A stretch of 64,000 bases of DNA from NCBI RefSeq assembly GCF_900188485.1, contig NZ_FZPH01000006.1, forward strand, positions 1 to 64,000, written 5' to 3'. The notes below the pieces were generated by a model. It was not told the DNA's origin and ran no database searches. It worked only from the letters and a program-made list of their open reading frames with translations. This stretch comes from Asanoa hainanensis. GTDB lineage: Bacteria; Actinomycetota; Actinomycetes; Mycobacteriales; Micromonosporaceae. Both the position numbers and the translations under genes were made by a program. Of the stretch, positions 31,747 to 64,000 are shown one piece after another (position 1 is the stretch's first letter; each line of letters begins with the position of its first letter).

Positions 31747-33390
31747 TCAGGCGGCAAAGCGGCGGGCGTGCAGGCGGTGCAGCACTCGGGACGCACCCCG
31801 GCCGAAGTGGTCGTGAAGCTCGCGGTAGTCGGCGTAGATCGGGTCGTACGCGTCGGCACGCTCAGGCGAGGGGCGGTAGACCTCGGGCCCCCGGCTGCCC
31901 ATCACCGCGGCGGCCGCCCGGACGTCGGGATAGTGCCCGGCGGCCACGGCCGCGTGGATGGCCGAGCCGAGCGCCGGACCCTGCGCCGAGCCGATCACCG
32001 CGATGGGCCGGCGCAGGACGTCGGCGTACACCTGCATGAGGAAGGCGTTCTTGATCAGGCCACCCGCCGCGACGACCTCGGTGACCGGCACCCCGGCCGC
32101 CGAGAACGTCTCGACGATCATCCGGGTGCCGAACGCGGTCGCCTCGACCAACGCCCGGTACTGCTCCTCGGGGCGGGTGGCCAACGTCTGCCCCAGGATC
32201 ACTCCGGACAGCGCGTGGTCGACCAGCACCGAGCGGTTGCCGCTGTGCCAGTCGAGCGCGACCAGCCCGTGCGCACCGACCGGCTGGGCGGCGGCCAGCG
32301 CGCTGAGGTGGTCGTGCAGGTCGACACCGGCGGCGGCAGCGGCGGACACATAGGACGGTGGTACGCAGTTCGCAGCGAACCAGGCAAAAATGTCGCCGAC
32401 GCCGCTCTGGCCTGCTTCGTAGCCCCACAGCCCGCGCACGATGCCGTCAGCGACCACGCCGCACATCCCCGGCACCGCGGCCAGCCGCTCACCGGACAGC
32501 ACGTGGCACGTCGAGGTGCCCATGATGGCCACCAGTTGGCCGGGTTCGACAGCCCGGGCGGCCGGAGCGGTGACGTGCGCGTCGACGTTGCCGACCGCGA
32601 CCGCGATCCCCTCGGGCAGCCCGGTCAGCTCCGCCGCCCGCGCGGTGAGCGACCCGGCCCGATCGCCCAATGCGGACAGTGGGTGGCGCAGCTTGTCGAC
32701 GAAGCCGGCGAAGCGCGGGTCGAGCAGCGCGAGGTATTCCGGCGACGGGTAGGCGCCGTCCTGGTGGATGCCCTTGTAGCCGGCCGTGCAGACGTTGCGG
32801 GTCTCGACGCCGCACAGCTCCCAGACGATCCAGTCGGCCGCCTCGATCCAGCGCTCGGCGCGGTCGTAGAGCTCCGGATCCTCGTCGAGCAGCTGGAGGC
32901 CCTTGGCGAACTGCCACTCCGCCGAGATCCGCCCCCCGTAGCGCGGCAGCCACGGCTCATTACGGTCGGCGGCGAGCGCGTTGATCCGGTCGGCCTGGCC
33001 CTGTGCGGCATGGTGTTTCCAGAGCTTCGGGTACGCGTGGGGCCGGTCGGCCAGGCCGTCGACCTCGCACAGCGGCGTGCCGTCGGCCAGCGTCGGCAGC
33101 ACGGTGCAGGCGGTGAAGTCGGTGCCGATGCCGACCACCTCGGCCGGCTCGACACCGGCCACGGCGAGCGCCTTGCGCACCGCCTCGCGCAGCACGTCGC
33201 GCCAGTCCTGTGGCACCTGCAGCGCCCACGACGGAGGCAACCGGCGACCGCCGGGCAGGGTCTGTTCGACGGCGCCGTGCGCGTACTCGTGGACGGCGGA
33301 GCCGACCTCGGCACCGTCGGCCACCCGCACCACCACTGCCCGCCCGGAGAGCGTCCCGAAGTCGACGCCGACCACGTAAGGCACGGCCAC
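31747..33390 (-). CDS. araB: Ribulokinase
   Basis: A 547-residue FGGY-family kinase that phosphorylates L-ribulose to L-ribulose-5-phosphate. The N-terminal [40 protein letters not shown] and the C-terminal ATP-binding [19 protein letters not shown] are diagnostic. It begins three bases after the second permease gene stop, so it is clearly part of the transporter operon. The next enzyme of the route, AraD (ribulose-5-phosphate 4-epimerase), is not in the window. Confidence 0.95.
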
Positions 33391-36969: not shown

Positions 36970-36978
36970 AGTCGACAC

Positions 36979-49402: not shown

Positions 49403-52400
49403 CTAGCTGAACGCCTTCACTTCGAGCAGGCCGACCGAGCCCGCACCGCTGGTCAGCGCGACGCGCAACCGGGTGGTGCTCACCTGCCCGAAGGTCACGG
49501 TGTTGTAGGCGTTGAGCGCGACCGGATAGCCGCTCGCCGACGGAACGTTCACATAGGAGCTTCCGTTCCAATACTGCAGCGTCCACGACGCCGGCACGCG
49601 TACACCGCCGTTGTCGTCGAAGAAGTAGACCTGGGCCGACGACAGCGTCTGCGCCGACGACCAGGTCAGCTCCGCCCACTGGGCGCCCGTGTTGGGCCAG
49701 GTTCCCCAGCGGTCGTTCACGGTGTCGTTCGACGAGGGCGGGTCGATGCCGTCGTTGATGGCCGCGACGCTCTCCCACGACGAGGTGTACGACGCGGACG
49801 GCGTCGCCGACAGAGCGAGGTTCCCCCCAGGCTCGGGATCGGGATCCGGATCCGGGTTCGTGCCACCGCGGTTGTAGAGCTTCAGCTCGGTCAACCCGGT
49901 CTTGGCCGACCCCGAGGCGTGCGTGAACTGCACCCGCAGCCGGGTCGTGTTGACCGGCGTGAAGCTCACCTTGTTGTAGTTGGACTGCGGCGTGCCCGGC
50001 GTCTTCACCTGGTTGCCGGCCGCCACGAACGCGCTGCCGTTCCAGTACTGCACGGTGTACGACGCCGGCGGCCGGTACCGGTTGGTCGCCCGGTCGTTGC
50101 GGAAGTAGATCCGCGCCTCGTCCACCGCCCGGCTGGTCCCGAAGTTCACCTCGTACCAGTCCGAGCTGTTGGGGCTCCCGTACGCACCCCAGATCGGGGC
50201 GTTGGTCGGGAGGCCGTCGACGGCACCGGCCGTCGAGGTGCCCGACGCGGTGTACGAGGCCGAGACCGACGCACCCGACGCGAGGTTGGGCAGGGTGGAG
50301 GTCAGGTCGACGCCGGCCTTGGCCGCGATGTCGACCATCCGGGCGCTGTTCAGGTTGACGTTCTGCGGGGTCTGGAGGCCCGAGAACGAGGTGCTGAAGT
50401 TGACCACGCCAGAGCCGGACGGGAACGTGACCGCACCGGTGGCGGGGTTGTAGAGCACGCGGGTGAGCCGGTCGACGGTGGCCACCCGGGTGCCGTTGAG
50501 ATAGATGGAGTAGCCCTGCGGCACGCCGCTGTAGCGGGTCACGCCGTCGGCCGGGTCGTCCCAGACGACCGACAGGTTGGCGTTGCGGTAGCGCAGGTTG
50601 TTGACCGCGAAGTGCGTCCAGCCGATGTTGATCGGGGAGAGCTCGATCTGCGCGTCGGCGCGCGGCCGCAGCCCGGCGACGTCTTCGATGACGGTCCAGT
50701 TGCTGCTGCCCAGGATGTTGTGATGGATCCACGAGCGGTACTGGATGCTGCTGCCGTTCCAGTCGGCCCAGAACTCGTTGGCGTCCGGGTAGCGGGTGTC
50801 GCCGCCCGGATACTGCGCCCAGGCGTTCCAGTAGAGCAGCTTCTTGTAGTCGTCGTTGGTCATCCAGGAGTTCGGGTAGTTGCGCAGCGCCGACGAGTAG
50901 AGCCGGAACTGCACCGTCGAGTTGATGGTGGAGAAGTTGTTGCTGCCCGGCTGGCCCGCGGCCGCCGCGGCGGCCTTGTCCCGCTGGTTCGCGGTGTAGA
51001 ACGGGAAGATCGGGTAGTCCGCCGGGTCGGCGAACAGCCGCAGCGCCTCGCGATACTGCGCGGTGTTGGGCATCAGGCCCACGGAGTACGGGTAGTAGTT
51101 GTTGATTTCCTTCCACGGCACGAAGGCGTTCGTGCTGACGTGCTTGTGCTCGAGCAGCTGCCGGGACGGGTTCCACAGCGTGTTGATGACGCCGTTGCGG
51201 ATCCGGTCGGCCAGCGTCTGCAGCTCGGTGGCCTTGGCGGTGTTGCCGAGCATCGCGTACGCCTGCTGCGAAGCGACGGCACCGGCCCAGACGTAGGCCG
51301 TCTCGGCCCGGTCCAGGTTGCCGGACCGCCAGTGGAACGACACCGCGTCGGCGTCGTTGCCGGTCAACGCACCCCAGTTGTACTCGATGACACCGTTGTT
51401 GTTGGTGTCGTAATAGGAGAGCTGGCCCTTGGCGTCGCCCTCCGCGTAGCGCGCGAAGTTCTGGAGCAACGCCGGCTGTCCACCATGGATCTGGAAGGCC
51501 TTCCAGGCGGCCTCCGACACGTACTGCGTGTAGGAGTTGGACCAGTTCTCCGGGTCACCGGGGTTGTCGACGAACCGCCCGTTGGCCGAATATTGCCCGA
51601 TCGACAGCCAGGGACCGTACGAGTACTCGGGCGATCGCAGGTACTTCAGGTCGTCGATGTGCATCGGCTGGGTCAGCACGATCGCGTTGTTGTAGCCGGT
51701 GACGCCCTCGATCGACTGCGGGAACTGGTAGTCCTGGCCCGGGATGTCGACGTCGAGGTAGTTGTAACGCATCAACCACCAGCGGTAGTAGATGTTCTTC
51801 TTGATGGCGGCGTCGGGCACGTCGATGTACGGCAGGTTCGTCGCCCACCACTGGTTGTAGGCCCGCACGTGGGTGGCGTACGCCGTCGCCGGCGTGAAGC
51901 CCCGGTAGCTGTTGTACTCGGTCAGCGACGCCGGGATCTCGTTGGCCACCAGGCCGAGCTGCACCTTGGTGGTCACGGTCTGGCCAGCGCCGACGGTCAC
52001 CGAACGGGTGAGCCCGCCGCTGCTGACCGTGAACCCGTCACCGGAGAACCGCGGGAACAGGGTGGTCAGGTTGTTCTTGACCGCCCGCGTGCCGGTGAGC
52101 TCGGTGCCGCTGCCGGTCGCCGCGTACGGCGAGACGGCCCGCAGCGAGACGGTCGCCGACGCCGTGCCGGTGTTGGCGACGTCCAGGTTGGTGACCATCA
52201 CGTTGTTGTGCGTGATGAACTTCGTGACCGTGATCCGGATCGACCCGCTGGTGTGCACGCTACGCCAGTAGCTCGGCGCCTGGAACCGTTGCGCCGACTG
52301 CTCGGTGAATGTGCCGGGCGACGGCGTGATCGTGTAGGCGCCCTGGCTGCTGATGTTGTCCCAGTAGGCGGCGTTGCCACCGAACCCGATCACCGAGGGC

Positions 52401-52714
52401 GTGTGCGTGTTCATGTACGCGCCCCGGCCGCGGGTCATCAGCCAGGTGCCGGCCGGGTCGTTGCCGGAACGGCCGAGCAGCCGGTCCATCCAGAAGTCGG
52501 TGCCGGAGCTCTCGGCGTCGTAGATGGCCTGCATGGTGCTGCCGGTGTTGTAGCCGACCGGGGGCTGCGGAATCGAGCCGGTGTTGTTGAAGGTGGGGAA
52601 GCCGATGGTCTGTGCGGCGTGGGCGGGGGTAGCGGCGATGACGCTCAACAGGCTGCCGGTGAGAACGGCGACGAGGCCGGCGGCCAGTCGGGGACGGCGG
52701 GTACGCAGGGACAT
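49403..52714 (-). CDS. Large secreted (alpha/alpha)6-type glycoside hydrolase with two discoidin-like modules
   Basis: An 1103-residue exported protein; Sec signal ending ATPAHA (about residue 33). Residues 35-260 are a beta-sandwich, about 270-690 an (alpha/alpha)6-barrel of the MGH1/GH63-related kind (NIYYRWWLMRYNYLDVDIPG, AETAYVWAGAVASQQAYA, DANEFWADWNG), 700-790 a beta-domain, then two discoidin-like carbohydrate-binding modules (about 810-945 and 965-1103) joined by a DPDPDPEP linker. Asp and Glu in FWADWNG and GVIEYNWGALTGNDAD are possible catalytic residues. The family number is not certain; GH142-like beta-L-arabinofuranosidase is one option given the neighbours. Last gene of the operon, 13 bp after the GH43 gene; AGGAGGT precedes ATG 52714. 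Confidence 0.75.
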   Translation of the reverse strand: MSLRTRRPRLAAGLVAVLTGSLLSVIAATPAHAAQTIGFPTFNNTGSIPQPPVGYNTGSTMQAIYDAESSGTDFWMDRLLGRSGNDPAGTWLMTRGRGAYMNTHTPSVIGFGGNAAYWDNISSQGAYTITPSPGTFTEQSAQRFQAPSYWRSVHTSGSIRITVTKFITHNNVMVTNLDVANTGTASATVSLRAVSPYAATGSGTELTGTRAVKNNLTTLFPRFSGDGFTVSSGGLTRSVTVGAGQTVTTKVQLGLVANEIPASLTEYNSYRGFTPATAYATHVRAYNQWWATNLPYIDVPDAAIKKNIYYRWWLMRYNYLDVDIPGQDYQFPQSIEGVTGYNNAIVLTQPMHIDDLKYLRSPEYSYGPWLSIGQYSANGRFVDNPGDPENWSNSYTQYVSEAAWKAFQIHGGQPALLQNFARYAEGDAKGQLSYYDTNNNGVIEYNWGALTGNDADAVSFHWRSGNLDRAETAYVWAGAVASQQAYAMLGNTAKATELQTLADRIRNGVINTLWNPSRQLLEHKHVSTNAFVPWKEINNYYPYSVGLMPNTAQYREALRLFADPADYPIFPFYTANQRDKAAAAAAGQPGSNNFSTINSTVQFRLYSSALRNYPNSWMTNDDYKKLLYWNAWAQYPGGDTRYPDANEFWADWNGSSIQYRSWIHHNILGSSNWTVIEDVAGLRPRADAQIELSPINIGWTHFAVNNLRYRNANLSVVWDDPADGVTRYSGVPQGYSIYLNGTRVATVDRLTRVLYNPATGAVTFPSGSGVVNFSTSFSGLQTPQNVNLNSARMVDIAAKAGVDLTSTLPNLASGASVSASYTASGTSTAGAVDGLPTNAPIWGAYGSPNSSDWYEVNFGTSRAVDEARIYFRNDRATNRYRPPASYTVQYWNGSAFVAAGNQVKTPGTPQSNYNKVSFTPVNTTRLRVQFTHASGSAKTGLTELKLYNRGGTNPDPDPDPEPGGNLALSATPSASYTSSWESVAAINDGIDPPSSNDTVNDRWGTWPNTGAQWAELTWSSAQTLSSAQVYFFDDNGGVRVPASWTLQYWNGSSYVNVPSASGYPVALNAYNTVTFGQVSTTRLRVALTSGAGSVGLLEVKAFS

Positions 52715-52727
52715 TGGGGCTCACCTC

Positions 52728-54161
52728 CTAGGACTGAAATGCCTGCCATTCGAGGACTCCGGTGGACAGCCCGGAGCGAGACGTGATCGACAGCCGCAAC
52801 CTGGTCGTGCTGACCGTGTTGAAGGTCGTCGAGTTGAACGTGTTGCCGGCCACCCCGCAGGCCGACTGACCGGGTACGGCGACGTACGCGCTGCCGTTCC
52901 AGTACTGCACCTGGCACGACGCGGGCAGGTCGATGCCCTGGTTGTCGTCGAACCAGTACGTGGCCACCCGGTTGATCGACCGGGCCGACGGCCACTGGTA
53001 CTCGATCCACTGGGTGCCCTGCTGCGGCCAGTTCCCGTACGCCAGGTTCGACCGGTCCTGGGAGTTGGCCGGCGTGCCGCCGTTGTTGATGGCTGCCAGC
53101 GACTCCCAGGAGGACACATAGGACGTCGATGCCGCGGCGCTGGGCGCGATGTTCGTGCCAGACGTCGGCGGCGTGGTCGGGCCGCCTGGGTTGGACGGCG
53201 GGCCGGTGGTGGTCTGCACCACCCGCTGGATCGTGCCGTCGCTGTTGAAGTACATCCGGTCGACGGCCACCGAGCGGCGGAAGTTGCCGCCGCCGGGCGC
53301 GTTCGCGTTGTGGTAGACCATGTACCACTGGCCGTTGAACTCGACCACGCCCGCGTGGTTGGTGGTCGACGAGACCTGGCCGAGCACGATGCCACGGTGG
53401 GTCCACGGCCCCATGGGGTTGGTCGCCGTCGCGTACCGCTGGCAGGCGTAGCTCGACGACGTCACGCAACCGTTCGTGTCGTTCGCCGCGTAGATCATGT
53501 AGTACAGACCGTTGCGCTTGAACATGAACGGGGCTTCCCAATAGTTCGTGAGCCCGGTCGGGGTGACCACCGAGCCGACGGTGTCGATCATGTTGGACGC
53601 CAGCCGGACGGCCCGCGGTGCCCAGTAGCCGCCCCAGTACATGTAGGCCTGGCCGTCGTCGTCGACGAACACCGTCGGGTCGATGTTCAGACCGGACGAG
53701 TTGGCGGTGCTGTCGCTGATCAACGGGCCGCCCTTGGCGTCGGTGAACGGGCCCAGCGGGCTGTCACCGACCGCGACGCCGATGTTCATCCAGCCCGCGC
53801 CGTTGCCGTTGATGGAGGTGTACCAGTAGTAGCGGCCGTTGCGCGGCTCCACCTCGCTGGCCCACGCGTCGGCGCCGGCCCACGGGAACGTGGCGATGTT
53901 CGCCCGCACGCCGCGGTCGGTCCAGGTGGCGGCGTCCGTCGAGGAGAGCACGTGCCACTCGCGCATGACGAAGTTCTGCTGGCTGGTCGAGGCCTCGTCG
54001 CGGCCGGTGTAGATGTACATGGTGTCGCCGACGACCAGCGGCGCCGGGTCGGCGGTGTAGATGGCGGTGATGACCGGGTTGGCGGCCTGCGCGGCGACGC
54101 CGAACAGCACCGCGGCCGCCAGCGTCACCACCCCGCAGGCGATGGCCACTCGTTTGCGCAT
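52728..54161 (-). CDS. Secreted GH43 family glycosidase with discoidin-like module
   Basis: A 477-residue exported enzyme; signal ends AAQA near residue 26. The five-bladed GH43 propeller carries the three acidic residues: Asp in YTADPAPLVVGD (base), Asp in NIDPTVFVDDDG and Glu in NYWEAPFMFK (acid). GH43 enzymes release alpha-L-arabinofuranose or xylose from arabinan or arabinoxylan; which is not decided here. After a Pro/Gly/Thr linker (about 317-335) a discoidin-like module (52731-53153) follows. ATG 54161 is used because AAGGGAG precedes it; the frame opens 16 codons earlier. It lies 13 bp after the Tat-exported GH127 gene. Confidence 0.9.
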   Translation of the reverse strand: MRKRVAIACGVVTLAAAVLFGVAAQAANPVITAIYTADPAPLVVGDTMYIYTGRDEASTSQQNFVMREWHVLSSTDAATWTDRGVRANIATFPWAGADAWASEVEPRNGRYYWYTSINGNGAGWMNIGVAVGDSPLGPFTDAKGGPLISDSTANSSGLNIDPTVFVDDDGQAYMYWGGYWAPRAVRLASNMIDTVGSVVTPTGLTNYWEAPFMFKRNGLYYMIYAANDTNGCVTSSSYACQRYATATNPMGPWTHRGIVLGQVSSTTNHAGVVEFNGQWYMVYHNANAPGGGNFRRSVAVDRMYFNSDGTIQRVVQTTTGPPSNPGGPTTPPTSGTNIAPSAAASTSYVSSWESLAAINNGGTPANSQDRSNLAYGNWPQQGTQWIEYQWPSARSINRVATYWFDDNQGIDLPASCQVQYWNGSAYVAVPGQSACGVAGNTFNSTTFNTVSTTRLRLSITSRSGLSTGVLEWQAFQS

Positions 54162-54174
54162 GACAACAGCTCCC

Positions 54175-56658
54175 TTACGAACCGGAGGAGTTGAGGGAGG
54201 CGATCTCACTGGCCGACAGCGCGCGGCTGTAGACGCGGAAGCTGTCGACGGCCGCGTTGAGATACGGGTCGCCGCTGTACTGCGAGCGCCCGATCCAGTT
54301 CTGGGTCGTCGTGCCGAGGATCGAGGGCCGGTTGGTGAGCGCGGAGTTGCGCGCCACCTCGGCCCCGTTGACGTAGAGGATGCCGAGGTTGCCGGTGTGC
54401 GTGATGGCGACGTGCGTCCACACCCCGGCGGGCAGGGCGGCCGGCGCGTCGATGCGCTGCTCGCCGCCCGCCCCGCCCGCGGTGATGGCGTAGCGGGCGG
54501 TGCCGCTGCCGCTGCGCGGCACGAGGAACATGTTGGTGCCGGTGCCGCTGCCGAAGTCGAACAGCCGGGCCCAGGTGGCCAGGGTGGTGACCCGGACCCA
54601 GGTGGCGACGGTGAACGAGGTGGCGCCGGCCAGGATGCCCGACGGCAGCGTCACGTACTGGCTGGAGCCGCTGAGGTTGACCGCGTTGCCGGTGCGGCCG
54701 GTGGTCCGCCCGGCGCCGCTGGACAGGGTCGCCGTGCGCCCGTTGCCTGTCGCGTCGGACGCCGTGGTGCCGGACGACTCGTCGAACTGGTAGTGGGCGA
54801 CGAACGCCGGCAGCGTCGGCGTCGTGGTGACGTTCCAGTAGACGGTGTAGCGCACGCCGTGCGTCTTGTAGAACGGCAGCAGCGTGACCGACCCCGTCGA
54901 AGCGGTCGCGGTGTACTGCAACGGCGTGCTGGTGGCGGCCAGCGAGCTGGCACTGAGCGTGGGCAGTGCGGACAGGTTCGTCGTGCCGTACTGGCCGGCG
55001 AGCACGATCGGTCCGTGCTTGACGGCGCGGACGGCGGAGTTGTCGGGAGTCGGCTCGATCGCCAGCGACATCGGCAGGCTGATGTCGACCGTGTCGCCGC
55101 TGGCCCAGGTCCGGTTGATGGTCAGGTAGCTGCCGGGGGTCGGCGAGCCGGTCAGCGTGCCGTTGACCCGCACCTGCGCGCCCGAAGTCCAGGACGGAAT
55201 GCGCACCCGCAGGTCGATGGCGCCGGACCCGGTGATGGTGAGCCGGCTGGTCGACGTCTCGGGATAGGTCGTGTCCTGCCGGATCGTGATGCCGCGCCCG
55301 GGCCAGGTCAGCGTGGACGCGATGAACAGGTTCACGTACAACGTGTTGCCGTTGTAGAAGTAGATGCTCTCGCCGTACTTCGTGTTGGTCTCCATTCCCG
55401 TGCCGTGGCAACAGGTGAAGTTGTTGTAGTCGTTGCTGTACGTCTTGATGCCGCCCGCCCGCAGCGGCACGTAGTAGCAGTGGAAGCCGTGCGACGAGCT
55501 CGGGTTCTGGGCGCCGAGCAGGTGGTTGTAGAGCGCCTTCTCGTAGAAGTCCATGAGCTCGGCGGCCCGGTTCGGGAACGTGAAGAACAACTGCCGGGTC
55601 AGCTTGAGCATGTTGTACGAGTTGCAGCACTCACAGGTCGAGTCCGAGAGCTCGCTGGCGATGGCGTTCGGCGGCTGGAAATACTCTCCGTTGGAGTTGC
55701 CGCCGATCGCGTACGAGTGCTGGTTGACCACGAAGTTCCAGAAGTTCGACGCGATGTCGCGGTAACGGGTCGTGCCCGTGGCATGGAAACCGCGGATCGC
55801 CGCGAGCGCCTTGGGGATCTGCGTGTTGGCGTGGAACCCGTTGAGCTGGTCGCTGTTGTTGGCCAGCGGGTCGAAGATCTGGGCGTGGTCGAAATACTGC
55901 GCCGTGGTCAGGTGCGCGGCGTTCTCGCCGTACTGGTAGAGGTTGTAGAGGGTCTCGCCGACACCGCCGAACTCCGTGCGCAGCATCGCCTGGCGCTGCG
56001 CCAGCGTCAGCCGGCTGTTGCGGAACTGCACCCAGGCGGCCTTGCGGTTGAGGATCGTCAGCGCCTGGGCGTTGCCGGCCAGCAGATGCATGTCGAGCAG
56101 GCCAGCCATGATCTTGTGCAGCGTGTAGTAGGGCGCCCAGACCGCCTGGCCGGTCTCGACCCGGTCGATGAAGCTCTCCGGGTACGCCGAGAGGTAGCCG
56201 GTGTTGAAGCCGCGGGCGGTGGCCCGGTCCTGGCACAACCCGAGCTGGGTGACGATGTAGTCGCCCTTGGTCTTGTAGGACGTGTCACCGGTGCTGGCGT
56301 ACGCCTGGGCGAGCGCGGTGAGCACGTGCCCGATCGAGTGGCCGCGCAGTTCCGTGGTCGGCGACTCCCAACCGCCGCACGCGGTGGCCGACGAGGCCAG
56401 GCCGGCGTTGAGGCGGAACATGTGCAGGAGCCGGTCCGCGTCGAGGAACGTCAGGTAGGACATCGTCCGGCCGGCGTTGGCCTGGAAGGGTCCGGCGAGC
56501 AGCCGGACGGCGGAGAGCGGGAAGGCATACGCCGAGACACCGGAGTCGGGGCGGGCTGCCTGTGCGGTGGTGGGTAGCGCGACGGCGGCGGTGGTGGCCA
56601 CCGCCGTTGCCGCGCCGGCCTTGAGGACGGTCCGGCGCGACAGCGGGGGTCTGTGCAT
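54175..56658 (-). CDS. Tat-exported GH127 beta-L-arabinofuranosidase with LamG-like module
   Basis: An 827-residue enzyme. The N-terminus SRRTVLKAG followed by an Ala-rich stretch is a twin-arginine signal. The GH127 (former DUF1680) barrel shows SYLTFLDADRLLHMFRLNAG, GGWESPTTELRGHSIGH and APYYTLHKIMAGLLDMH. The zinc-cysteine site is intact: Glu343 and Cys345 in TCECCNSYNM and the Cys416-Cys417 pair in FTCCHGTGMETN, the first being the expected nucleophile; Glu325 in NSNGEYF is a likely acid/base. From about residue 645 a LamG/concanavalin-like module follows. Tat export suits a folded metal enzyme. ATG 56658 follows GAAAGG; GTG 56667 is possible. Confidence 0.92.
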   Translation of the reverse strand: MHRPPLSRRTVLKAGAATAVATTAAVALPTTAQAARPDSGVSAYAFPLSAVRLLAGPFQANAGRTMSYLTFLDADRLLHMFRLNAGLASSATACGGWESPTTELRGHSIGHVLTALAQAYASTGDTSYKTKGDYIVTQLGLCQDRATARGFNTGYLSAYPESFIDRVETGQAVWAPYYTLHKIMAGLLDMHLLAGNAQALTILNRKAAWVQFRNSRLTLAQRQAMLRTEFGGVGETLYNLYQYGENAAHLTTAQYFDHAQIFDPLANNSDQLNGFHANTQIPKALAAIRGFHATGTTRYRDIASNFWNFVVNQHSYAIGGNSNGEYFQPPNAIASELSDSTCECCNSYNMLKLTRQLFFTFPNRAAELMDFYEKALYNHLLGAQNPSSSHGFHCYYVPLRAGGIKTYSNDYNNFTCCHGTGMETNTKYGESIYFYNGNTLYVNLFIASTLTWPGRGITIRQDTTYPETSTSRLTITGSGAIDLRVRIPSWTSGAQVRVNGTLTGSPTPGSYLTINRTWASGDTVDISLPMSLAIEPTPDNSAVRAVKHGPIVLAGQYGTTNLSALPTLSASSLAATSTPLQYTATASTGSVTLLPFYKTHGVRYTVYWNVTTTPTLPAFVAHYQFDESSGTTASDATGNGRTATLSSGAGRTTGRTGNAVNLSGSSQYVTLPSGILAGATSFTVATWVRVTTLATWARLFDFGSGTGTNMFLVPRSGSGTARYAITAGGAGGEQRIDAPAALPAGVWTHVAITHTGNLGILYVNGAEVARNSALTNRPSILGTTTQNWIGRSQYSGDPYLNAAVDSFRVYSRALSASEIASLNSSGS

Positions 56659-56681
56659 GCGCGGCACCTTTCACAGAAGGG

Positions 56682-57971
56682 TTAATAGCCGTACCGGTTC
56701 TTCAGGTGGCGCCACCAGTCGCGCAGCATCCACCGGTCGAACTCGGTGATCGACGAAGCGCTGCCGGCGCGCATGATGAAGCCGCCGACACCGCTGGGCG
56801 TCCAGTCGTAGAAATCGTCGAGACCGTAGGTGTGCCCGATCTCGTGGAGGAGGATCGTCATGTTCTCGGCGTTGAGGTTGTTCATGAAGTACTCGCGGCC
56901 CATCCGCTGACCCCAGTCGCCGCCCGCGCCGCCGCCGAAGCCGTCGGTCAGCCAGAGCGAGTGGTCGTAGTGCCGCGCGGCACCACCCGGGCAGTTCGGG
57001 TACTGACCGCTCTGGTTGAAGAACCGCCCGCACGGCGCACCGCACTGGGGCGCGTTCTCGCGGATGTCGCCGACGTAGATGTCGACGGAGGTGTCGGACC
57101 ACTGGAGCTGGGCGCGGTCCCGCACGGCCCAACCGACCACCCGGACCGGCACGTCGCTGTACGGGAAACCGTTGTGCCCGAACATTTCGGCCATCCACTT
57201 GCGATACTGGCGGGCCAGGGCGGCGTGCACCTGGTCGCGCTGCGCGGCCGTGACCGACGCCGACGAGTCCCACCGCACGCAGTAGTTGATGTAGCCGCGG
57301 TTGGCGAACAGCTGGTCCCAGCCGTAGTTGCGGAACGCGTACAGGTTGCCGTTGTTGTAGGTCTGCTCCTGGTGCGTCCAGACCTGGCCCAGTGGGGTGA
57401 CGAGGTTGCTGGGCGGGTTCCAACCACTTGTCGGCGGCGGCGTCGTCGTCGCGCTGTGCGCTTTGACCTCCAACAGCCCGACCGACCCGGCTCCGCTTTG
57501 GAGCACGACGCGCAGCCGGGTGGTGCTGACCGCGGTGAAGGTGACGGAGTTGTAGCGGTCCGCGGCCACCGGGTAGCCGCTGGCGCCGGACACGTCGACG
57601 TAGGCGCTGCCGTTCCAGCTCTGCACCCGCCACGAGGACGGCAGGCGGACGCCGCCACCGTCGTCGAAGAAGTAGACCTCGGCGGCCCGGATGGTCTGCG
57701 CCGCCGTCCAGGTCAGGTCCACCCACTGCTGGCCCTGGTTGGGCCAGGTGCCCCAGCGCGGGTTCGCGGTGTCGTTGGACCGGGGCGGGTCGACGCCGTC
57801 GCGGATCGCGGCGACGCTCTCCCAGGGCGAGGTGTAGGAGGCGCTGGGCGTCGCCGTCCAGGCCAGGTTGTCGCCGGGCGCGGCGTGAGCCGGGGCGCCG
57901 CCCGTGACGAGAGCGAGCCCGGCCGTCACCAGGATGCTCGCTGTGCTGGCCAGGGCTTTTCGGGTGTTCAT
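56682..57971 (-). CDS. Secreted zinc metalloprotease with N-terminal discoidin-like module
   Basis: A 429-residue exported protein; signal ends APAHA (about residue 30). Residues about 34-172 are a discoidin-like module nearly the same as the last module of the large glycosidase. After a TTTPPPTSGW linker comes a domain with HEIGHTYGLDDFYD near residue 378: HExxHxxGxxD, in which the third zinc ligand is Asp as in snapalysin-type (M7) proteases, and a Met-turn-like FIMRAGS. Paired cysteines (PQCGAPCG, YPNCPGG) may be disulfides. A protease inside a glycosidase operon is notable: it could cut the protein core of an arabinosylated glycoprotein. ATG 57971 has GGAGT before it. Confidence 0.85.
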   Translation of the reverse strand: MNTRKALASTASILVTAGLALVTGGAPAHAAPGDNLAWTATPSASYTSPWESVAAIRDGVDPPRSNDTANPRWGTWPNQGQQWVDLTWTAAQTIRAAEVYFFDDGGGVRLPSSWRVQSWNGSAYVDVSGASGYPVAADRYNSVTFTAVSTTRLRVVLQSGAGSVGLLEVKAHSATTTPPPTSGWNPPSNLVTPLGQVWTHQEQTYNNGNLYAFRNYGWDQLFANRGYINYCVRWDSSASVTAAQRDQVHAALARQYRKWMAEMFGHNGFPYSDVPVRVVGWAVRDRAQLQWSDTSVDIYVGDIRENAPQCGAPCGRFFNQSGQYPNCPGGAARHYDHSLWLTDGFGGGAGGDWGQRMGREYFMNNLNAENMTILLHEIGHTYGLDDFYDWTPSGVGGFIMRAGSASSITEFDRWMLRDWWRHLKNRYGY

Positions 57972-58049
57972 GGGGACTCCTCTCCGTACATTGATGAAGA
58001 TCAATTTCTTGAACCGGAGTCCGCCCGTGGAGCCGGGGAGTCCGGGTTG

Positions 58050-58847
58050 TTACCCCTTGATGGCGCCCGAGGTGAAGCCTCGGACGTAGCTGCGCTGCAT
58101 GAACGCGAACAGGATCAGGCAGGGCACGGCCATGAAGACCACGCCGGCTTCGAGCGCCGCGTAGTCGATGGAGCCGTGGCTCGCCGTGCGCATGTTGACC
58201 ACGGCGAGCGTGGTGGTGAACTTGTCCGTCGAGTTGAGCAGGATGAGCGGCGCGAAGAACTCGCTCCACGAGGTGAGGAACGCGAACAGCCCGACGGTGA
58301 TCAGGCCCGGCTTGACCGCCGGCAGCATGATCCGGACCAGCGTGCCGACACTGGCACACCCGTCCATCTGGGCGGACTCCTCGAGCTCACGTGGCACGGC
58401 CTCGAACGAGTTGCGCATCATGAAGATCGAGAACGGGAGCTGGAACATCACGAGCACGAGGCTCAGGCCGACCAGCGAGTCTTCCAGGCCGATCCAGCCG
58501 AGCAGCACGTAGAGGGCGATCAGAATCGTCGCGTACGGGACCATCAGGATCGCCAGGGTGACCAGGAAGAGCACGTCGCGGCCGGGGAACTTGAACCGGC
58601 CGAAGGCGTAGCCGCCGAGGGTCGCGACGAACAGGGTGCCGCCGACGGTCAGCACGCTGACCACCAGGCTGTTGAGCACGTGCTGCGGCCGCACGCCGTT
58701 GTCGGACGTGAACAGCCGGTCGTAGTTCTCCAGGCCGAAACCGGAGCCGGTGCGCACCGAGGCCCACCCGCTCCACAGCAACGGGAACAGGAACAGGATG
58801 GCCAGCGCGCCACCGGTGACCGAGTATCCGATGCGGGAACGGTTCAT
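58050..58847 (-). CDS. Carbohydrate ABC transporter permease (MalG-like)
   Basis: A 265-residue CUT1 permease with six helices and the EAA loop ELEESAQMDGCASVGTLVRIMLPAVKPG. It is the second permease of the importer; CUT1 systems carry oligosaccharides. The ATPase is missing, as is common in actinobacteria, where a shared MsiK-type ATPase serves several importers. The gene starts ten bases after the other permease. Confidence 0.93.
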   Translation of the reverse strand: MNRSRIGYSVTGGALAILFLFPLLWSGWASVRTGSGFGLENYDRLFTSDNGVRPQHVLNSLVVSVLTVGGTLFVATLGGYAFGRFKFPGRDVLFLVTLAILMVPYATILIALYVLLGWIGLEDSLVGLSLVLVMFQLPFSIFMMRNSFEAVPRELEESAQMDGCASVGTLVRIMLPAVKPGLITVGLFAFLTSWSEFFAPLILLNSTDKFTTTLAVVNMRTASHGSIDYAALEAGVVFMAVPCLILFAFMQRSYVRGFTSGAIKG

Positions 58848-58857
58848 CGCGCTGCCC

Positions 58858-59808
58858 CTAGTTCGACCGGCGGCGCAGCACGCCGAGCTGGATGACGTTG
58901 AAGACGACCAGGACGACCAGCAGCACCACCGAGATGGCGGCCGCGGAGCCGAGGTCGAGGCGGATGAACGCCTCGCGGTAGATCACCATGACCAGCGACG
59001 TGGTGCTGTTGTCGGGACCGCCCCTGGTCAGGATCCAGAACTGGTCGAAGGCCAGCAGCGAGCCGGTCACCATGAGCGTGAGCACAAGGGCGATCGTCGG
59101 CCGCAGCAGCGGCAGGGTGATGCTGCGGAAGGTCTGCCACCGGCTGGCGCCGTCGACCCGGGCCGCCTCGTAGATCTCCGGCGGGATGGCCTGCAGGCCG
59201 GTCAACAGGATCAGCATGTTGAAGCCCGCGAACCGCCAGAGCACCAGCACGACCGCGGAGCCCAGCGCGGAGTTGGCGCTGCCGCTGGTCCACGAGACGT
59301 AGCCGTCGATCAGCCCGATGCCCCGCAACAGGTCGCTGACCGGCCCGATCTCGTCGCTGAGCAGGCCGAGGAAGAGCAGCGAGGCGCTCGCGAAGCCCAC
59401 CGCCATCGGCAGGAAGAACGCGGTGCGGAAGAACCCGACGCCGCGCCGGCGGTGCTGGACCAGCAGCGCCAGCCCCAGCGACACCGCGAAGAGCAGCACG
59501 GTGATGATCACCGTGTATTTGATGGTGAACCAGGTGGCGGACCGGACGAGCTCGTTGTCGCCGATGGTGGTGAAGTTGTCCGGCGCGTTGAGGGTCGGCG
59601 GGGCCAGCAGCGGCCAGCGATGCAGCGACATCCAGCCGACGAGCACCAGCGGGGTGAGGAAGAACAACGCGACCATGACGGCCGTCGGGCTGGCGTACGC
59701 GATGCCGAGCCAGGCACGACGGGTCTGGCGTCGGAAGCGGCGGCGAGCCGGCGGTGGGCCGGCCTGCTCGGCCCGCTGTGCCCGGCGCGGGGTGGTCACG
59801 ATGGTCAT
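58858..59808 (-). CDS. Carbohydrate ABC transporter permease (MalF-like)
   Basis: A 316-residue CUT1 permease; N-terminal basic cytosolic tail to about residue 32, then six helices. EAA motif EIYEAARVDGASRWQTFRSITLPLLRPT. It forms the channel with the MalG-like protein. ATG 59808 is preceded by GAAGGA. It is separated from the binding-protein gene by a strong hairpin. Confidence 0.93.
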   Translation of the reverse strand: MTIVTTPRRAQRAEQAGPPPARRRFRRQTRRAWLGIAYASPTAVMVALFFLTPLVLVGWMSLHRWPLLAPPTLNAPDNFTTIGDNELVRSATWFTIKYTVIITVLLFAVSLGLALLVQHRRRGVGFFRTAFFLPMAVGFASASLLFLGLLSDEIGPVSDLLRGIGLIDGYVSWTSGSANSALGSAVVLVLWRFAGFNMLILLTGLQAIPPEIYEAARVDGASRWQTFRSITLPLLRPTIALVLTLMVTGSLLAFDQFWILTRGGPDNSTTSLVMVIYREAFIRLDLGSAAAISVVLLVVLVVFNVIQLGVLRRRSN

Positions 59809-59830
59809 CTTCGTCCTTCTCGGTTGGGGA

Positions 59831-59860
59831 TGGGGGTCCGGACGGCCGACCGGACCCCCA
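59831..59860 (-). promoter_or_regulatory. Intercistronic hairpin after the oligosaccharide-binding-protein gene
   Basis: TGGGGGTCCGG, loop ACGGCCGA, CCGGACCCCCA in the 64-bp gap between binding protein and MalF-like gene. It probably stabilises the upstream message or ends part of the transcripts, as for the hairpin at 36944. Confidence 0.6.
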
Positions 59861-59872
59861 CCACGAGCAGGG

Positions 59873-61159
59873 TCAGCTCTGTTGCAGTGACTTGGTGATG
59901 GCGGTGTTGCCGCTGCTGAGCGCCGACGCCGCGTCCCCGAACAGGGCCCCTCGCACGGTCTGCAGCCACGGGCTCTGCGGGTCGTTGAAGGACGCGTTGA
60001 AGTTGCGGGCGTACGGCGTCTGGCCCTTGGCCATCAGGGAGTTGATCAGCACGATCCGCGGGTCGGCGGACGAGTACTTGTTCGACGCCAGGTCGGTGCG
60101 GGTCGGCACGCCCTTGTTCTTCGCGACGACCTCGACCTGCGCCTCGTCGGACATCGTCCAGGCCAGGAAGTCCCACGCCTGGGCCACCTTGGTGCTGGTG
60201 GCGCCGATGCCGATCGCGTCGCCGCCCACGAACGTGGACTCGCCCCCGTCCGGACCGGGAATCGGCGCCACGCCCATCTTCACGCCCTTCTCCTCGATCA
60301 GGCCGAGCCAGACCGAAGGACCGGGTGCGATGCCGACCTTGCCGCCCTGGAGCGCACCGAGCCAGGTCGGCCCGGCCTCGTCCTTCGACGCCGGAGCGGC
60401 GACGCCCTCGTCGTAGAGCGAGCGGTAGAGGGCGAAGACGTCGGCCATCTCCTTGGAGTCGACCTTCGCGTTGTTGCCCTCGGCGTCCAGGACGCCACCG
60501 CCCGCGGCCCAGACCGACGGCCAGAAGGTGAACTCGACACAGCCGCCGCAGTTGCCGCCGAAGTAGGTGCCGTTGATGTCGCCACCCAGCTTGTCGATCT
60601 TGCGAGCGTGGTCGGCGAACTCCTTGAGCGTGGTCGGCGGCTTCTCCGGGTCGAGGCCGGCCTTCGCGTAGAGGTCCTTGTTGTAGAGCATCACCGACAT
60701 GTCGATCGTGTGCGGGACCGCGTAGTTCTTGCCTTCCCAGGTGCCGGCCTTCACGTGCGCCGGAGCGACCTTGTCCTTGACGTCGAGCGCGCCGAACCGG
60801 TCGGTCAGGTCGACCCACAGGCCCTGCGAGGCGTACTGCGCGGCGAACACCACGTCGGAGGCGAACAGGTCCGGCAGCGACTTCGCGCCGGCGGCCGACG
60901 CCAGCTTGGCCGGGTACTCCTCGTTGGGGTACGCGGTCACCTCGACCTTGTTCTTGTGCGTGGCGTTGTACTTCTCCGCGTACGCCTTGGAGACCGACTC
61001 GGTGGCGGCCCTGGTCCACAGGGTCAGGGTGGCGCCGTCGTCGGCCGAGGCGGCAACCGTGCCGCCGCCGGCCGTGTCGTCGTTGCCGCAGGCCGCCACG
61101 GCCATCAGTAGCGCCGCCGCGGTGACAGCGAGGACGCGTCGTGCTCGATATCTAGCCAT
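59873..61159 (-). CDS. CUT1 extracellular solute-binding lipoprotein
   Basis: A 428-residue lipoprotein; signal with lipobox VAAC (Cys24). The mature domain is a family 1 solute-binding protein (TLTLWTRAATESVSKAYAEKYNA, VPHTIDMSVMLYNKDLYAKAGLD, FVGGDAIGIGATSTKVAQAWDFLAWTMSDEAQ). With GH127 genes on both sides the likely ligand is an arabinose-containing oligosaccharide. The ATG at 61159 overlaps the stop of the upstream GH127 gene by eight bases and follows AAGGAG, so the two are coupled. The frame extends 97 codons further only inside that gene. Confidence 0.93.
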   Translation of the reverse strand: MARYRARRVLAVTAAALLMAVAACGNDDTAGGGTVAASADDGATLTLWTRAATESVSKAYAEKYNATHKNKVEVTAYPNEEYPAKLASAAGAKSLPDLFASDVVFAAQYASQGLWVDLTDRFGALDVKDKVAPAHVKAGTWEGKNYAVPHTIDMSVMLYNKDLYAKAGLDPEKPPTTLKEFADHARKIDKLGGDINGTYFGGNCGGCVEFTFWPSVWAAGGGVLDAEGNNAKVDSKEMADVFALYRSLYDEGVAAPASKDEAGPTWLGALQGGKVGIAPGPSVWLGLIEEKGVKMGVAPIPGPDGGESTFVGGDAIGIGATSTKVAQAWDFLAWTMSDEAQVEVVAKNKGVPTRTDLASNKYSSADPRIVLINSLMAKGQTPYARNFNASFNDPQSPWLQTVRGALFGDAASALSSGNTAITKSLQQS

Positions 61160-63068
61160 CCGTGCTCCTTGCGCGAGGGGATTGGACAGTTGGCAGCCAG
61201 ACCCGCATCGTGGCGGGACCACGACGGGCCCAGCGGTGGTAAGGCAGCAGTCGAACCAACCCGAGCGGCGGGTCGTCGGCGGTGGCTCCTGCGTAGGGCC
61301 AGGCAGCGTCGGTCTCGGTGGCGAGCCCACCCCACACCTCGACGCCGTCGCCGTGGTCCGCCGGCGCCCGGCGCGGGTCGACCCGGAGTTGGTCGAGGTC
61401 GCCCAGCGGCTCGGCCACCGGCGACTCGGCGCAGTAGACGACAGGGCCACGCTCGACCGCGACGCAGCCGCGGACCGCGTCGATCCGCGGGTCGGGCGAG
61501 GTGAACCGGGGCGCCATCGGCAGGTGCAGCCGCACCTCGTCGCCCGCGACGAAGGCCCGCCGCACGGTCACGGTCGCACCGGCGGCTCGCGTCACCCCGT
61601 CGACGGTCGCGCCCTCGGCCCAGGCGGGGATCCGCAGGGTCAGCGGCCACTCGCCGCCGTCGGTGGCGGTGATCCGGATGGTCACGTCGCCGTCGACCGG
61701 GTACGCGGTGGAGGTCTCCAGCGCCACCCGGCGCCCGTCGGCCAGCGTCGTGTCGATCGTCGCGTCCGCGTACTGCATGATCCGGAGGCCCTCGTCGTCG
61801 GCGGCGGCGACGTAGGTGCTCAGCGCGGCCAACAGCCGGGACACGTTGGGCAGGCAGCAGGAGACCTCGAACCAGGGCGCCCGCGGGCCGCCGCCGAAGC
61901 CGAGCTGCTCCTCGTCGTCGGGCAACGCCCGGGTCGGCGTGCGCTGGTGCAGGCTGTGCGCGTAGAAGAAGGCGCGGCCGTCGTCGTCGATCGCGGTCGC
62001 GACCACGTTGTAGAGGATCCGCTCGATCACGTCGGCGTAGCGGGCCTCGCCGGTCGCCAGCAGCAGGCGCCAGGCCAGCATGACCGCGGCGACGCTGGCA
62101 CAGCTCTCCGAGTAGGCGCGATCCGACGGCAGCACGAAGTCGTCGCTGAACGCCTCGTCCATGTGCCGCGAGCCCATCCCGCCGGTCAGGTAGGTGCGCC
62201 TGGCCCAGGTGCGGTCGAACTGCGCGGCGACGGCCTCGAGCAGCTCGTCGTCGCCGGTCTCGACGGCGACGTCGACCACGCCGCAGGCCAGGTAGAGCGC
62301 GCGGACCGCGTGTCCACGCAGGACGGTGGCCGCGCGCACCGGGATGTCGTCACTGAAGTAGGACGCGCCGAACTGGTGCGGCGGCAGGCTCTGGTGCCCG
62401 CGCCGCTCCACGAACAGCGCGGCCTGGTCGAGGTAGCGGCGCTCCCCGGTGACCCGGTAGAGCTCGACCAGGGCAGGCTCGATCTCCGGGTGGCCGCAGA
62501 TCCCGCTGTTGCCGTCTTTTCCGAAGGTCGCGCAGATGTGGTCAGCTACCTTGCGGGCGATGTCGAGCAGCGGGCCCGGGCCGTGCACCCGGGTGTTGGC
62601 CACTGCGGCCTGCAGCAGGTGGCCCGCGCAGTAGAGCTCGTGGCCCCAACGCAGGTCACTCCAGCGCGGCTGTTGGCCGTCCCGGCCGTACGCGGTGTTG
62701 AGGTAGCCGTCGGGCTCCTGCGCGCCGCCGATCAGCGCGACCAGCTCGTCGATCTCCCGGACCCGAGCCGGGTCGGCGCGGCGGCCGGTCTCCCACGACA
62801 TCGCCTCGATCAGCTTGTAGACCTCGGAGTCGGCGAACTCCCGGCCCCGGTGTTCGACCGGCCCGGTGGCCGCGCCGATCGTGAAGTTGCCGGTCCAACC
62901 GACCTTGTCCATCCAGGCCCGGGCGTGGTCCAGGCTGCCCTCGCTGATGACGCGCTGCCGGTCGGCCCAGAACCCCGCCGTGATCCGCGCCTCGGCCAGG
63001 CCGAGCGGGCGCAACGCGCCGCGGGACGGGTCCACCGGCCGGCCGCCGGTGGGGTCGGAAGCTGCCAC
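61152..63068 (-). CDS. Cytosolic GH127 beta-L-arabinofuranosidase
   Basis: A 638-residue GH127 enzyme without signal peptide, similar in layout to HypBA1 of Bifidobacterium longum, which removes L-arabinose from beta-1,2-linked arabinofuranosyl disaccharide. The residues line up with the spacing known for HypBA1: acid/base Glu305 (MDEAF), zinc ligands Glu321 and Cys323 (YSESCAS) and the Cys404-Cys405 pair (EVSCCLPN), the first being the nucleophile. The N-terminal barrel GQQPRWSDLRWGHELYCAGHLLQAAVA and C-terminal beta-domains are complete. Start GTG 63068 with GGAGGT seven bases upstream. First gene of the operon; acts after import. Confidence 0.93.
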   Translation of the reverse strand: MAASDPTGGRPVDPSRGALRPLGLAEARITAGFWADRQRVISEGSLDHARAWMDKVGWTGNFTIGAATGPVEHRGREFADSEVYKLIEAMSWETGRRADPARVREIDELVALIGGAQEPDGYLNTAYGRDGQQPRWSDLRWGHELYCAGHLLQAAVANTRVHGPGPLLDIARKVADHICATFGKDGNSGICGHPEIEPALVELYRVTGERRYLDQAALFVERRGHQSLPPHQFGASYFSDDIPVRAATVLRGHAVRALYLACGVVDVAVETGDDELLEAVAAQFDRTWARRTYLTGGMGSRHMDEAFSDDFVLPSDRAYSESCASVAAVMLAWRLLLATGEARYADVIERILYNVVATAIDDDGRAFFYAHSLHQRTPTRALPDDEEQLGFGGGPRAPWFEVSCCLPNVSRLLAALSTYVAAADDEGLRIMQYADATIDTTLADGRRVALETSTAYPVDGDVTIRITATDGGEWPLTLRIPAWAEGATVDGVTRAAGATVTVRRAFVAGDEVRLHLPMAPRFTSPDPRIDAVRGCVAVERGPVVYCAESPVAEPLGDLDQLRVDPRRAPADHGDGVEVWGGLATETDAAWPYAGATADDPPLGLVRLLPYHRWARRGPATMRVWLPTVQSPRARSTDG

Positions 63069-63110
63069 CGTTGTTACCTCCAGGTTTCGTGATGGCGCTC
63101 ACTCTGGACT

Positions 63111-63205
63111 CCGAAAACCTTTTCGGCAAGATGCCAAATCGGCCATCCCGAAAACCCGCTGCTTGCTGATACGTTGCCCGCAGCAACAGAAAACGTTGGC
63201 GAAAG
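63111..63205. promoter_or_regulatory. Candidate LacI operators between the GH127 operon and its regulator
   Basis: CCGAAAA-CC-TTTTCGG (63111-63126) is a perfect 7-bp inverted repeat 43 bp before the GH127 start. A half site CCGAAAACC follows at 63148-63156, and near 63190-63200 AAAACGTTGGCG carries the AACGTT core favoured by LacI proteins. All lie in the 146-bp divergent spacer. Binding by the downstream LacI protein is inferred. Confidence 0.55.
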
Positions 63206-63214
63206 GTGTTTCTC

Positions 63215-64000
63215 ATGGGCCGGCACCGCACGCAGGCCGTGACGCTGTCCGACGTCGCGCGCCGGGCCGGTGTCTCGGTCGCCACGGCGTCGAAGGCGCT
63301 CAACGACCGGGCGCAGGTGGCCGCCGCGACCCGCCAGCGGGTCCTCGCGGCGGCGAGCGAGCTGTCGTTCCACCCCAACGCGCTGGCCCGCGGTCTGATC
63401 GTCGGCCGCACCCGGACCATCGGCCTGCTCACCGACGAGCTCGGCGGCCGGTTCTCCATCCCGATCCTGCTCGGCGCCGAGAACGCGCTCGGCAACGAGC
63501 AGATGTCGGTGCTCCTCTGCGACGCCCGCGGCGACGCCATCCGCCGGGCGCACTACATCCGCACGCTGCTGGCCCGCCGGGTCGACGGCTTCATCGTGCT
63601 CGGCGACAGCAACGACATCCGGCCGTCGCTCACCCGCGACATCCCGGTGCCGGTGGTCTACGTCTACGGCGAGTCCGCCGACCCGGGCGACTTCTCGCTG
63701 CTGGCCGACGACGAGGGTGGCGCGCGCCTGGCGGTGGAGCACCTGGTCGCCCTCGGCCGCCGGCGGATCGCCCACATCACCGGCCCGCACAGCTACCGGG
63801 CGGCCCGTGACCGGGTGACCGGCATGCGGGAGGTGCTGGCCGAACACGATCTCGCGCCGGCCGGCGACCCGCTCTACGGCGAGTGGTCGCAGCGCTGGGG
63901 CCGGCACGCCGCCCGCATGCTGCTCAGCGCCGAGCCCGAGACCGACGCCATCTTCTGCGGCAACGACCAGATCGCCACGGGCGTCTCGCAGACGCTGCTC
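63215..64000 (+). CDS. LacI-family regulator, 3' end outside the window
   Basis: The first 262 residues are visible. The helix-turn-helix (LSDVARRAGVSVATASKALNDRAQV) and hinge (HPNALARGLIVGRT) are followed by the sugar-binding domain (DGFIVLGDSN, HLVALGRRRIAHITGP, DAIFCGNDQIATG). It is divergent from the GH127 operon and is the likely repressor, released by an arabino-oligosaccharide or L-arabinose. ATG 63215 has GAAAGG eight bases upstream. The frame is open to the window edge. Confidence 0.92.
   Translation, partial: MGRHRTQAVTLSDVARRAGVSVATASKALNDRAQVAAATRQRVLAAASELSFHPNALARGLIVGRTRTIGLLTDELGGRFSIPILLGAENALGNEQMSVLLCDARGDAIRRAHYIRTLLARRVDGFIVLGDSNDIRPSLTRDIPVPVVYVYGESADPGDFSLLADDEGGARLAVEHLVALGRRRIAHITGPHSYRAARDRVTGMREVLAEHDLAPAGDPLYGEWSQRWGRHAARMLLSAEPETDAIFCGNDQIATGVSQTLL

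Follow-up and report, generated by a model that had tools for sequence, protein, structure and literature searches.

A metzincin-like metalloprotease gene within a hyp-type beta-arabinooligosaccharide operon of Asanoa hainanensis and other actinobacteria

The operon considered here lies in a 64,000-nucleotide stretch of DNA from Asanoa hainanensis (contig NZ_FZPH01000006.1, positions 1 to 64,000; termed the window below) and joins genes for glycoside hydrolases (GH) and a sugar importer to a gene for a putative secreted metalloprotease. Its closest described counterparts, as presented in excerpts of the papers cited, are the hyp/Bau system of bifidobacteria and a gene cluster of Xanthomonas euvesicatoria. 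For bifidobacteria, control of hypBA1, hypBA2 and the BauABC ATP-binding cassette (ABC) importer has been predicted to lie with BauR1, a LacI protein (PMC5928203, where the GH numbers of the two enzymes are swapped in one sentence). In X. euvesicatoria the GH43, GH121 and GH127 enzymes of the XeHypBA1/AA/BA2 cluster jointly dismantle Ara4-Hyp, an arabinoside of hydroxyproline (Hyp), and actinomycetes with hypBA2 and hypAA homologues are named in the same paper (PMC6085000). Its authors expect deglycosylated hydroxyproline-rich proteins to become accessible to proteases, and propose that a putative prolyl oligopeptidase encoded beside XeHypAA, reported to be a pseudogene, acts on such proteins. 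Glycoprotein breakdown in the Latescibacteria has been ascribed to general peptidases (PMC4454575), and the excerpted text of PMC5928203 and PMC7263609 mentions no protease for hyp/Bau.

In the window a single leftward transcription unit runs from 63068 to 49403 with intergenic gaps of 10-78 bp, as delineated by open reading frame (ORF) and family analysis. It encodes, in the direction of transcription, a GH127 enzyme, a binding lipoprotein, two CUT1-type permeases, the HExxH protein, a GH146-like enzyme, a GH43 enzyme and a GH121 enzyme, and is flanked on the right by a divergent LacI gene (Table 1). An earlier reading of the same DNA, the original prediction, had outlined this unit correctly, including the cytosolic GH127, the CUT1 importer without an ATPase, the secreted zinc protease with a sugar-binding module, the GH43 enzyme and the LacI protein; the several overlaps it reported reduce to one, of 8 bp between the start of the binding lipoprotein gene and the stop of the GH127 gene. 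It also held that the operon lacks GH121 and would be a different design from hyp. The first statement is wrong and the second unsupported: the protein that it listed as a large (alpha/alpha)6 glycosidase, without naming the family, matches a GH121 structure (PDB 6m5a), and the gene set and LacI control correspond to BauR1, hypBA1, hypBA2 and BauABC (PMC5928203). As judged by homology, LacI, GH127, ABC importer and GH121 occur in one unit, which defines hyp/Bau, and the sugar part can be regarded as the known beta-arabinooligosaccharide design with additions and predicted regulation. Shared with Bifidobacterium (BauR1, HypBA1, BauABC, HypAA and HypBA2) are the LacI protein, cytosolic GH127, ABC importer, and surface or secreted GH43 and GH121 enzymes with F5/8C-type modules; the operon in the window differs in having an extra secreted GH146 enzyme and the metalloprotease, in having no membrane-anchored form of HypBA2 and in occurring in other bacterial orders. 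Since GH121, GH127 and GH43 together make up the Ara4-Hyp set (PMC6085000), the plant hydroxyproline-rich substrate class named in the original prediction is supported, and on firmer grounds than that prediction could offer. In contrast to the broken, predicted prolyl oligopeptidase gene of Xanthomonas, the protease gene of the window is open, metzincin-like and part of an operon with importer and LacI protein. No description of this protease was found among the matches listed in the open literature on GH121/HypBA2, extensin and hydroxyproline glycoproteins, and the presence of an open, unrelated and unclassified protease gene within the operon in several actinobacterial families seems to be new. 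We consider it probable that the operon strips and uses the arabinose of hydroxyproline proteins while the protease cuts the protein core. This view is built on observed families, catalytic residues, module sharing, a conserved operon slot, co-occurrence and operator sites, from which we infer the substrate, the order of steps, repression and proteolysis.

The association of the protease with GH121 was examined in 150 genomes of the window's family, its own 8.64 Mb genome included. The protease occurs in 66 and GH121 in 67, with both in 57, the protease only in 9, GH121 only in 10 and neither in 74 (phi 0.74; Fisher p 2.8e-21, a test that ignores kinship and was made with no genome tree). The GH121 counts include fragments (G055, G021, G091 and G128, and L162 among the named loci described below) and a subfamily at 42-48% identity; when GH121 is required at 55% identity or more, the four classes become 57, 9, 7 and 77 (phi 0.78). 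As controls in the same genomes, phi was 0.18 for snapalysin M7 and GH121, 0.44 for GH62 and GH121, and 0.47 for GH62 and the protease. Genus codes were assigned to 99 of the 150 genomes: genus g29 has seven genomes with both genes, six with neither and none discordant, g32 four and three, and g24 two and one, while discordant genomes fall in g1, g4, g7, g12, g39 and g44 and in the single-gene genera g20, g21, g26 and g33. GH121 also has a second subfamily, about 43% identical and with frames mostly of about 1600 amino acids (G037, G058, G078 and others); G065 and G137, which carry it, lack the protease. A draw across the phylum yielded the protease in 1 of 396 genomes and GH121 in 3 of 396 (in part with only two candidates scored per genome) and cannot serve as a second co-occurrence test because it contains almost no carriers. 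Plasmid records gave one unannotated match.

Physical linkage points in the same direction. The family sample contains 70 protease copies, counted after removal of three partial matches (31-32% identity, E about 4e-4) from 73. For 20 of them a GH121 match, in one case a fragment (G055), occurs on the same contig at a distance of no more than 20 kb. A second set of named loci comprises the best 80 of 296 relatives, with partners counted at 45% identity or more and many stretches terminating at contig ends; near the protease there we found GH121 in 31 loci, GH43 in 28, LacI in 26, GH127 in 19, GH146 in 17, each permease in 16 and the binding protein in 15. Comparison of gene order across actinobacteria, a check suggested with the original prediction, recovered the order of the window in 10 of these 80 loci (eight exact, two in which the search split one gene), in Asanoa, Lentzea, Umezawaea, Saccharothrix and Crossiella, so that the protease occupies the same operon slot in Pseudonocardiaceae. 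Other arrangements are GH43-GH121-protease in Herbidospora, Nonomuraea and Streptosporangium, and LacI-protease-(GH146)-GH43-GH121 in Actinoplanes and Paractinoplanes. GH121 is therefore found near the protease in Micromonosporaceae, Pseudonocardiaceae and Streptosporangiaceae in several gene orders, and its proximity changes 13 times on an 81-row protease tree, at least seven of these changes being forced by well-supported branches. By protease sequence the closest named relative of the window's organism is Asanoa siamensis (94%). A survey of ORFs of at least 120 amino acids, chosen by third-position GC, around the 31 linked copies revealed no conserved gene in four or more loci beyond the operon set, save one antisense frame. 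Around unlinked copies (160 ORFs; 5 of 32 loci gave no protease ORF and were dropped) the commonest common cluster occurs in seven loci and others in 5, 4, 4 and 3, largely from the same few genera.

Two further features tie the protease to the sugar system. When its F5/8C-type module, which alone falls below the Pfam cut-offs, was compared with the whole genome at E up to 0.001, it matched, besides itself, only the GH121 modules (73% and 39% identity) and the GH43 module (49%). This sharing is the most direct sign, at the level of sequence, that protease and arabinobiosidase may be held on the same material. Among relatives the N-terminal module varies between F5/8C-type, carbohydrate-binding module family 2 (CBM2) and none. 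The Herpetosiphon relatives (L150 and L157, Chloroflexota) have a CBM2 protease at 71% identity, which suggests transfer between phyla. The second feature is the operator. The palindrome CCGAAAACCTTTTCGG, slightly varied, was seen by eye before nearly all of 15 LacI relatives in other loci, relatives from other genera among them. The site CGAAAANNTTTTCG occurs once in the genome, and because the reversed-pattern control also gave one, the genome count is uninformative by itself and it is the position that informs. With a matrix built from nine LacI-upstream sites (eight different; match at a score of 16 or more), an operator was found before 11 of 38 protease copies whose stretch shows neither a close hyp gene nor a LacI match, and before 17 of the 39 that have such a neighbour; among 3042 random stretches the rate was 1.8%. 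Linkage is here defined by any close hyp gene or LacI match and not by GH121 alone, three of the 80 loci are omitted for too little upstream sequence, and several of the unlinked stretches end at contig ends. An overlapping set, which shares organisms with these 38 copies and omits L044 (no upstream sequence), gave operators before 5 of 20 unlinked copies against a background of 0.9%; GH127 or LacI adjoins two of these five copies. A protease copy that lies inside the operon does not require a separate operator.

These links are not universal, and several observations weigh against the reading in which the protease serves the breakdown of hydroxyproline proteins. In the family sample 50 of the 70 protease copies have no GH121 on their contig at 20 kb or less, although many contigs are short, and there are the 9 of 66 protease genomes without GH121 and the 10 of 67 GH121 genomes without protease. 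Two genomes of the same genus (L098 and L201) carry the whole operon in the same order without the protease, the distance between the permease and GH146 matches being 77 and 82 bp, so that the protease is optional to the operon; it is likewise missing from two GH121-bearing genomes of another family. In Herpetosiphon (L150, L157) and Kribbella (L171) the stretch fetched around the protease contains no GH121. The operator is absent before 27 of the 38 and 15 of the 20 unlinked copies, and its wiring to the protease is not universal, because five genomes (G009, G042, G061, G080 and G144) keep LacI and operator at the GH121 locus but have protease copies without it. Part of the co-occurrence is moreover due to a general plant-biomass lifestyle, since GH62 also co-occurs with both genes. 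It is conceivable that only the sugar part is of the hyp type and that the protease acts on plant walls in general, or on some other wall protein, and is co-regulated for convenience. The copies distant from GH121, the protease genomes without GH121 and the two same-genus operons without the protease speak for such a role, as does the cellulose-binding CBM2 on 8 of 10 relatives, hand-chosen for the module scan, which also fits a plant-wall target as such. We nevertheless regard this alternative as improbable, given the repeated linkage to GH121, the GH121-like module and the presence of the operator before some of the unlinked copies. The occurrence of the protease in unrelated contexts, which the original prediction had named as a sign against itself, is seen in part: 50 copies stand apart from GH121, although 57 of the 66 protease genomes hold GH121 somewhere.

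The preferred reading also depends on the assignment of the glycosidases. The large enzyme matches 6m5a, deposited as 'Beta-L-arabinobiosidase', over residues 84-804 (phmmer, 656.5 bits). Its residues 336 (SIEGV), 454 (GNDADAV) and 647 (NEFW) align to, and are identical with, Glu383, Asp515 and Glu713, the essential acids of the HypBA2 structure paper (PMC7263609), whose numbering was mapped to the PDB chain by an offset of 31 that places all three on Glu, Asp and Glu. The NCBIfam full-length HypBA2 equivalog NF041578 matches at E 3.2e-259 and 863.6 bits without reaching its cut-off of 3200, the model having 1709 positions and the protein 1103 residues. We assign the enzyme, from these alignments, to GH121, as a HypBA2-like member with all three catalytic acids kept. 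The PF07944 enzyme with a Tat-type signal (TAT_signal 20.1 bits, under the cut-off of 22.7) had been put forward as GH127; Tat-type export is upheld and the family is not. Its nearest structures are 5opj (346 bits), taken here as BT_0349 of GH146, and 8k7y and 8k7x (206 and 205 bits), presumably the GH146 enzyme of PMC10850190, while GH127 4qjy scores 65 bits. It is therefore closer to GH146 than to GH127. The catalytic domain and the zinc-cysteine site, kept in structure-sequence alignments, are shared with BT_0349 and Bll3HypBA1, whereas the C-terminal laminin-G-like module (Laminin_G_3, E 5.8e-34) and the GH121 operon context are its own. The first enzyme of the unit, in which no signal peptide is seen, is GH127 proper: its acid/base Glu and Cys3-Glu zinc site, located with residue numbers that we take to be those of HypBA1, align to 4qjy and 3wkw. 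Such a Cys3-Glu site is described in PMC10850190.

It could be argued from some of these enzymes that the operon is directed at the alpha- and beta-arabinofuranosides of arabinan, rhamnogalacturonan or arabinogalactan proteins, with extensin hydroxyproline arabinosides as a minor substrate. Both arabinan and arabinogalactan protein are substrates of a GH146 enzyme, and BT_0349 is part of a rhamnogalacturonan-I locus (PMC10850190); the GH43 enzyme, at most a putative counterpart of HypAA, has as its nearest solved relative the xylosidase/arabinofuranosidase 3qed, a further point against the hydroxyproline reading. This appears distinctly unlikely to us when set against the reported strict specificity of HypBA2 GH121 for Ara3-Hyp (PMC6085000) and the presence of the full Ara4-Hyp set.

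As to the protease, metzincins are defined by HExxHxxGxx(H/D) and a Met-turn. The protein has HEIGHTYGLDD (HEIGHTYGLDDFYDW) at residue 376 (56814-56846) and a FIM Met-turn at 398, and alignments of 25 and of 38 rows, which overlap in organisms, show no variation in the zinc ligands, the Met-turn Met or four cysteines; by these motifs it may be called metzincin-like. None of the 38 members reaches a Pfam cut-off, and their weak matches are mostly to metzincins or kin (M12, M10, M66, M57 and M7). Assignment to M12 (Reprolysin_5, PF13688) was rejected with 24.8 bits for the best of the 38 members and a cut-off of 27, to M66 (PF10462) with 12.6 bits for the window protein, 15.3 for the best member and a cut-off of 20.6, and to snapalysin M7 (PF02031) with matches of any kind in 5 of 38 and a best E of 0.055. 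The M6 model TIGR03296 weakly matches all 38 members (best E 3.5e-5), the window protein scoring 18.2 bits with a cut-off of 110.8. No PDB chain was matched, up to E 10, by a profile built from 25 members. When 12 snapalysin domains, drawn from the genome that holds the window and from relatives, were used in profile-profile comparison (hhalign), a match of 94.9% probability extended over 34 columns that span the zinc motif and Met-turn. HExxHxxGxxD and the Met-turn are thus common to the protease, snapalysin and other metzincins (M12, M10, M57, M66); unlike these 34 columns, the remaining domain, with the four invariant cysteines, matched nothing, and by reaching no cut-off the protein would belong to no curated peptidase family. 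That it is a binding or inactive metzincin-like helper carrying glycosidases is very unlikely: the missing cut-offs and solved relatives would suit a helper, but every row of both alignments keeps the zinc motif, its third ligand included, and the Met of the Met-turn, and the snapalysin match covers exactly this region.

In the preferred reading, extracellular GH43 would take the terminal alpha-1,3-arabinose off Ara4-Hyp, GH121 would free beta-1,2-arabinobiose from the resulting Ara3-Hyp, and GH146 would clear remaining or other beta-arabinofuranosides. The CUT1 importer, with a shared ATPase, would bring in the disaccharide, which cytosolic GH127 would cleave to L-arabinose for an isomerase/kinase route, and the LacI protein would keep the operon off until an arabinosugar is present. 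The protease, anchored on the same material by its GH121-like sugar-binding module, may cut the protein core where it is exposed or glycosylated, which would loosen the wall network and bring more glycan within reach. The proposal that glycan and core are both attacked, already made in the original prediction, is consistent with the operon slot, co-occurrence, module and operator; proteolysis itself is the part that we infer. A bolder version, which we hold to be doubtful, is that a new metzincin family begins with this protease, its members being arabinosyl-hydroxyproline glycoproteases that recognise Hyp-rich stretches, arabinosylated or just trimmed, and cleave next to them in step with GH121. 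The preferred reading and the alternatives overlap, and their likelihoods need not add up to certainty.

Table 1. Coordinates of operon features and arabinose genes in the window
Feature	Position	Strand	Basis
L-arabinose isomerase and FGGY-family kinase (probably ribulokinase)	30219..33390	-	PF02610/PF24856/PF11762 and PF02782/PF00370
GH121 beta-L-arabinobiosidase-like, secreted	49403..52714	-	PDB 6m5a E 6.3e-196; aligned catalytic acids
Two C-terminal F5/8C-type modules of GH121	49874-50287 and 49406-49828	-	Module comparison
GH43, secreted	52728..54161	-	PF04616 E 6.2e-45; best PDB 3qed (gly43N) E 2.2e-73
C-terminal F5/8C-type module of GH43	52737-53159	-	Genome module match; Pfam F5/8C below cut-off
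GH146-like beta-L-arabinofuranosidase, Tat-exported	54175..56667	-	PF07944 E 2.3e-110; nearest PDB 5opj
Metzincin-like zinc metalloprotease, secreted	56682..57971	-	Signal peptide, F5/8C-type module and catalytic domain
Protease catalytic domain, 248 aa	56685-57428	-	Zinc motif, Met-turn
Protease F5/8C-type sugar-binding module	57447..57875	-	73% identity to last GH121 module
CUT1-type ABC permease (MalG-like)	58050..58847	-	PF00528 E 1.6e-16; NCBIfam MalG-type models below cut-off
CUT1-type ABC permease (UgpA/MalF-like)	58858..59808	-	PF00528 E 2.1e-17; NCBIfam models below cut-off
Sugar-binding lipoprotein, AVAAC lipobox	59873..61159	-	PF13416 E 4.3e-36; start read from sequence
GH127 beta-L-arabinofuranosidase-like, cytosolic (HypBA1-like)	61152..63068	-	PDB 4qjy E 7.9e-104, 3wkw E 2.2e-77
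LacI-type operator CCGAAAACCTTTTCGG	63111..63126		7-bp perfect arms, between divergent genes
LacI-family regulator, divergent	63206..64000 (to contig base 64252)	+	NCBIfam LacI-type models, E down to 7e-41

Some gene boundaries in Table 1 call for comment. The GH43 start was set at an ATG, the ORF itself opening at 54209, and the frame 56671-58359, considered for the protease gene, was discarded as an overlapping frame without family. The LacI gene has start candidates at 63206 and 63215, and the window holds part of it. No ATPase gene is present in the operon; TOBE_2-type ATPases are encoded elsewhere in the genome, the best at C28. Directly after the stop of the binding-protein gene and before the permease gene there is a strong GC-rich hairpin (59809-59872), and hairpins often sit between genes of these two kinds.

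Outside the operon, 16-19 kb from its left end, the isomerase/kinase pair could use the released arabinose. It belongs to an arabinose island (30219-39163, about 10 kb from the operon end) that also encodes another ABC sugar importer and a further LacI protein, and in which no operator site scored 16 or more. Between 39215 and 47205 the plus strand encodes three long, secreted-looking proteins, the first with a weak DUF1565 match and the other two with no Pfam match at E 1e-5. ARAGORN places a tRNA-Thr at 40240-40333 on the strand opposite to the long open frame 39215-41776, and one of the two is probably wrong.

Extensins and their kin lock plant cell walls, and their arabinose coats probably make them resistant to ordinary proteases. 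The sugar-stripping half of extensin breakdown is known, while the protein half is only conjectured in the literature that we found. A protease that recurs in one operon with the arabinobiosidase and has a sugar-binding module closely similar to one of that enzyme's is a concrete candidate for this second half, and would supply a tool enzyme for plant-wall proteins. Should the more doubtful glycoprotease proposal be true, the protease would do for plant walls what the O-glycoproteases of gut bacteria do for mucin, linked in its action to GH121 by a shared sugar-binding module and LacI operator.

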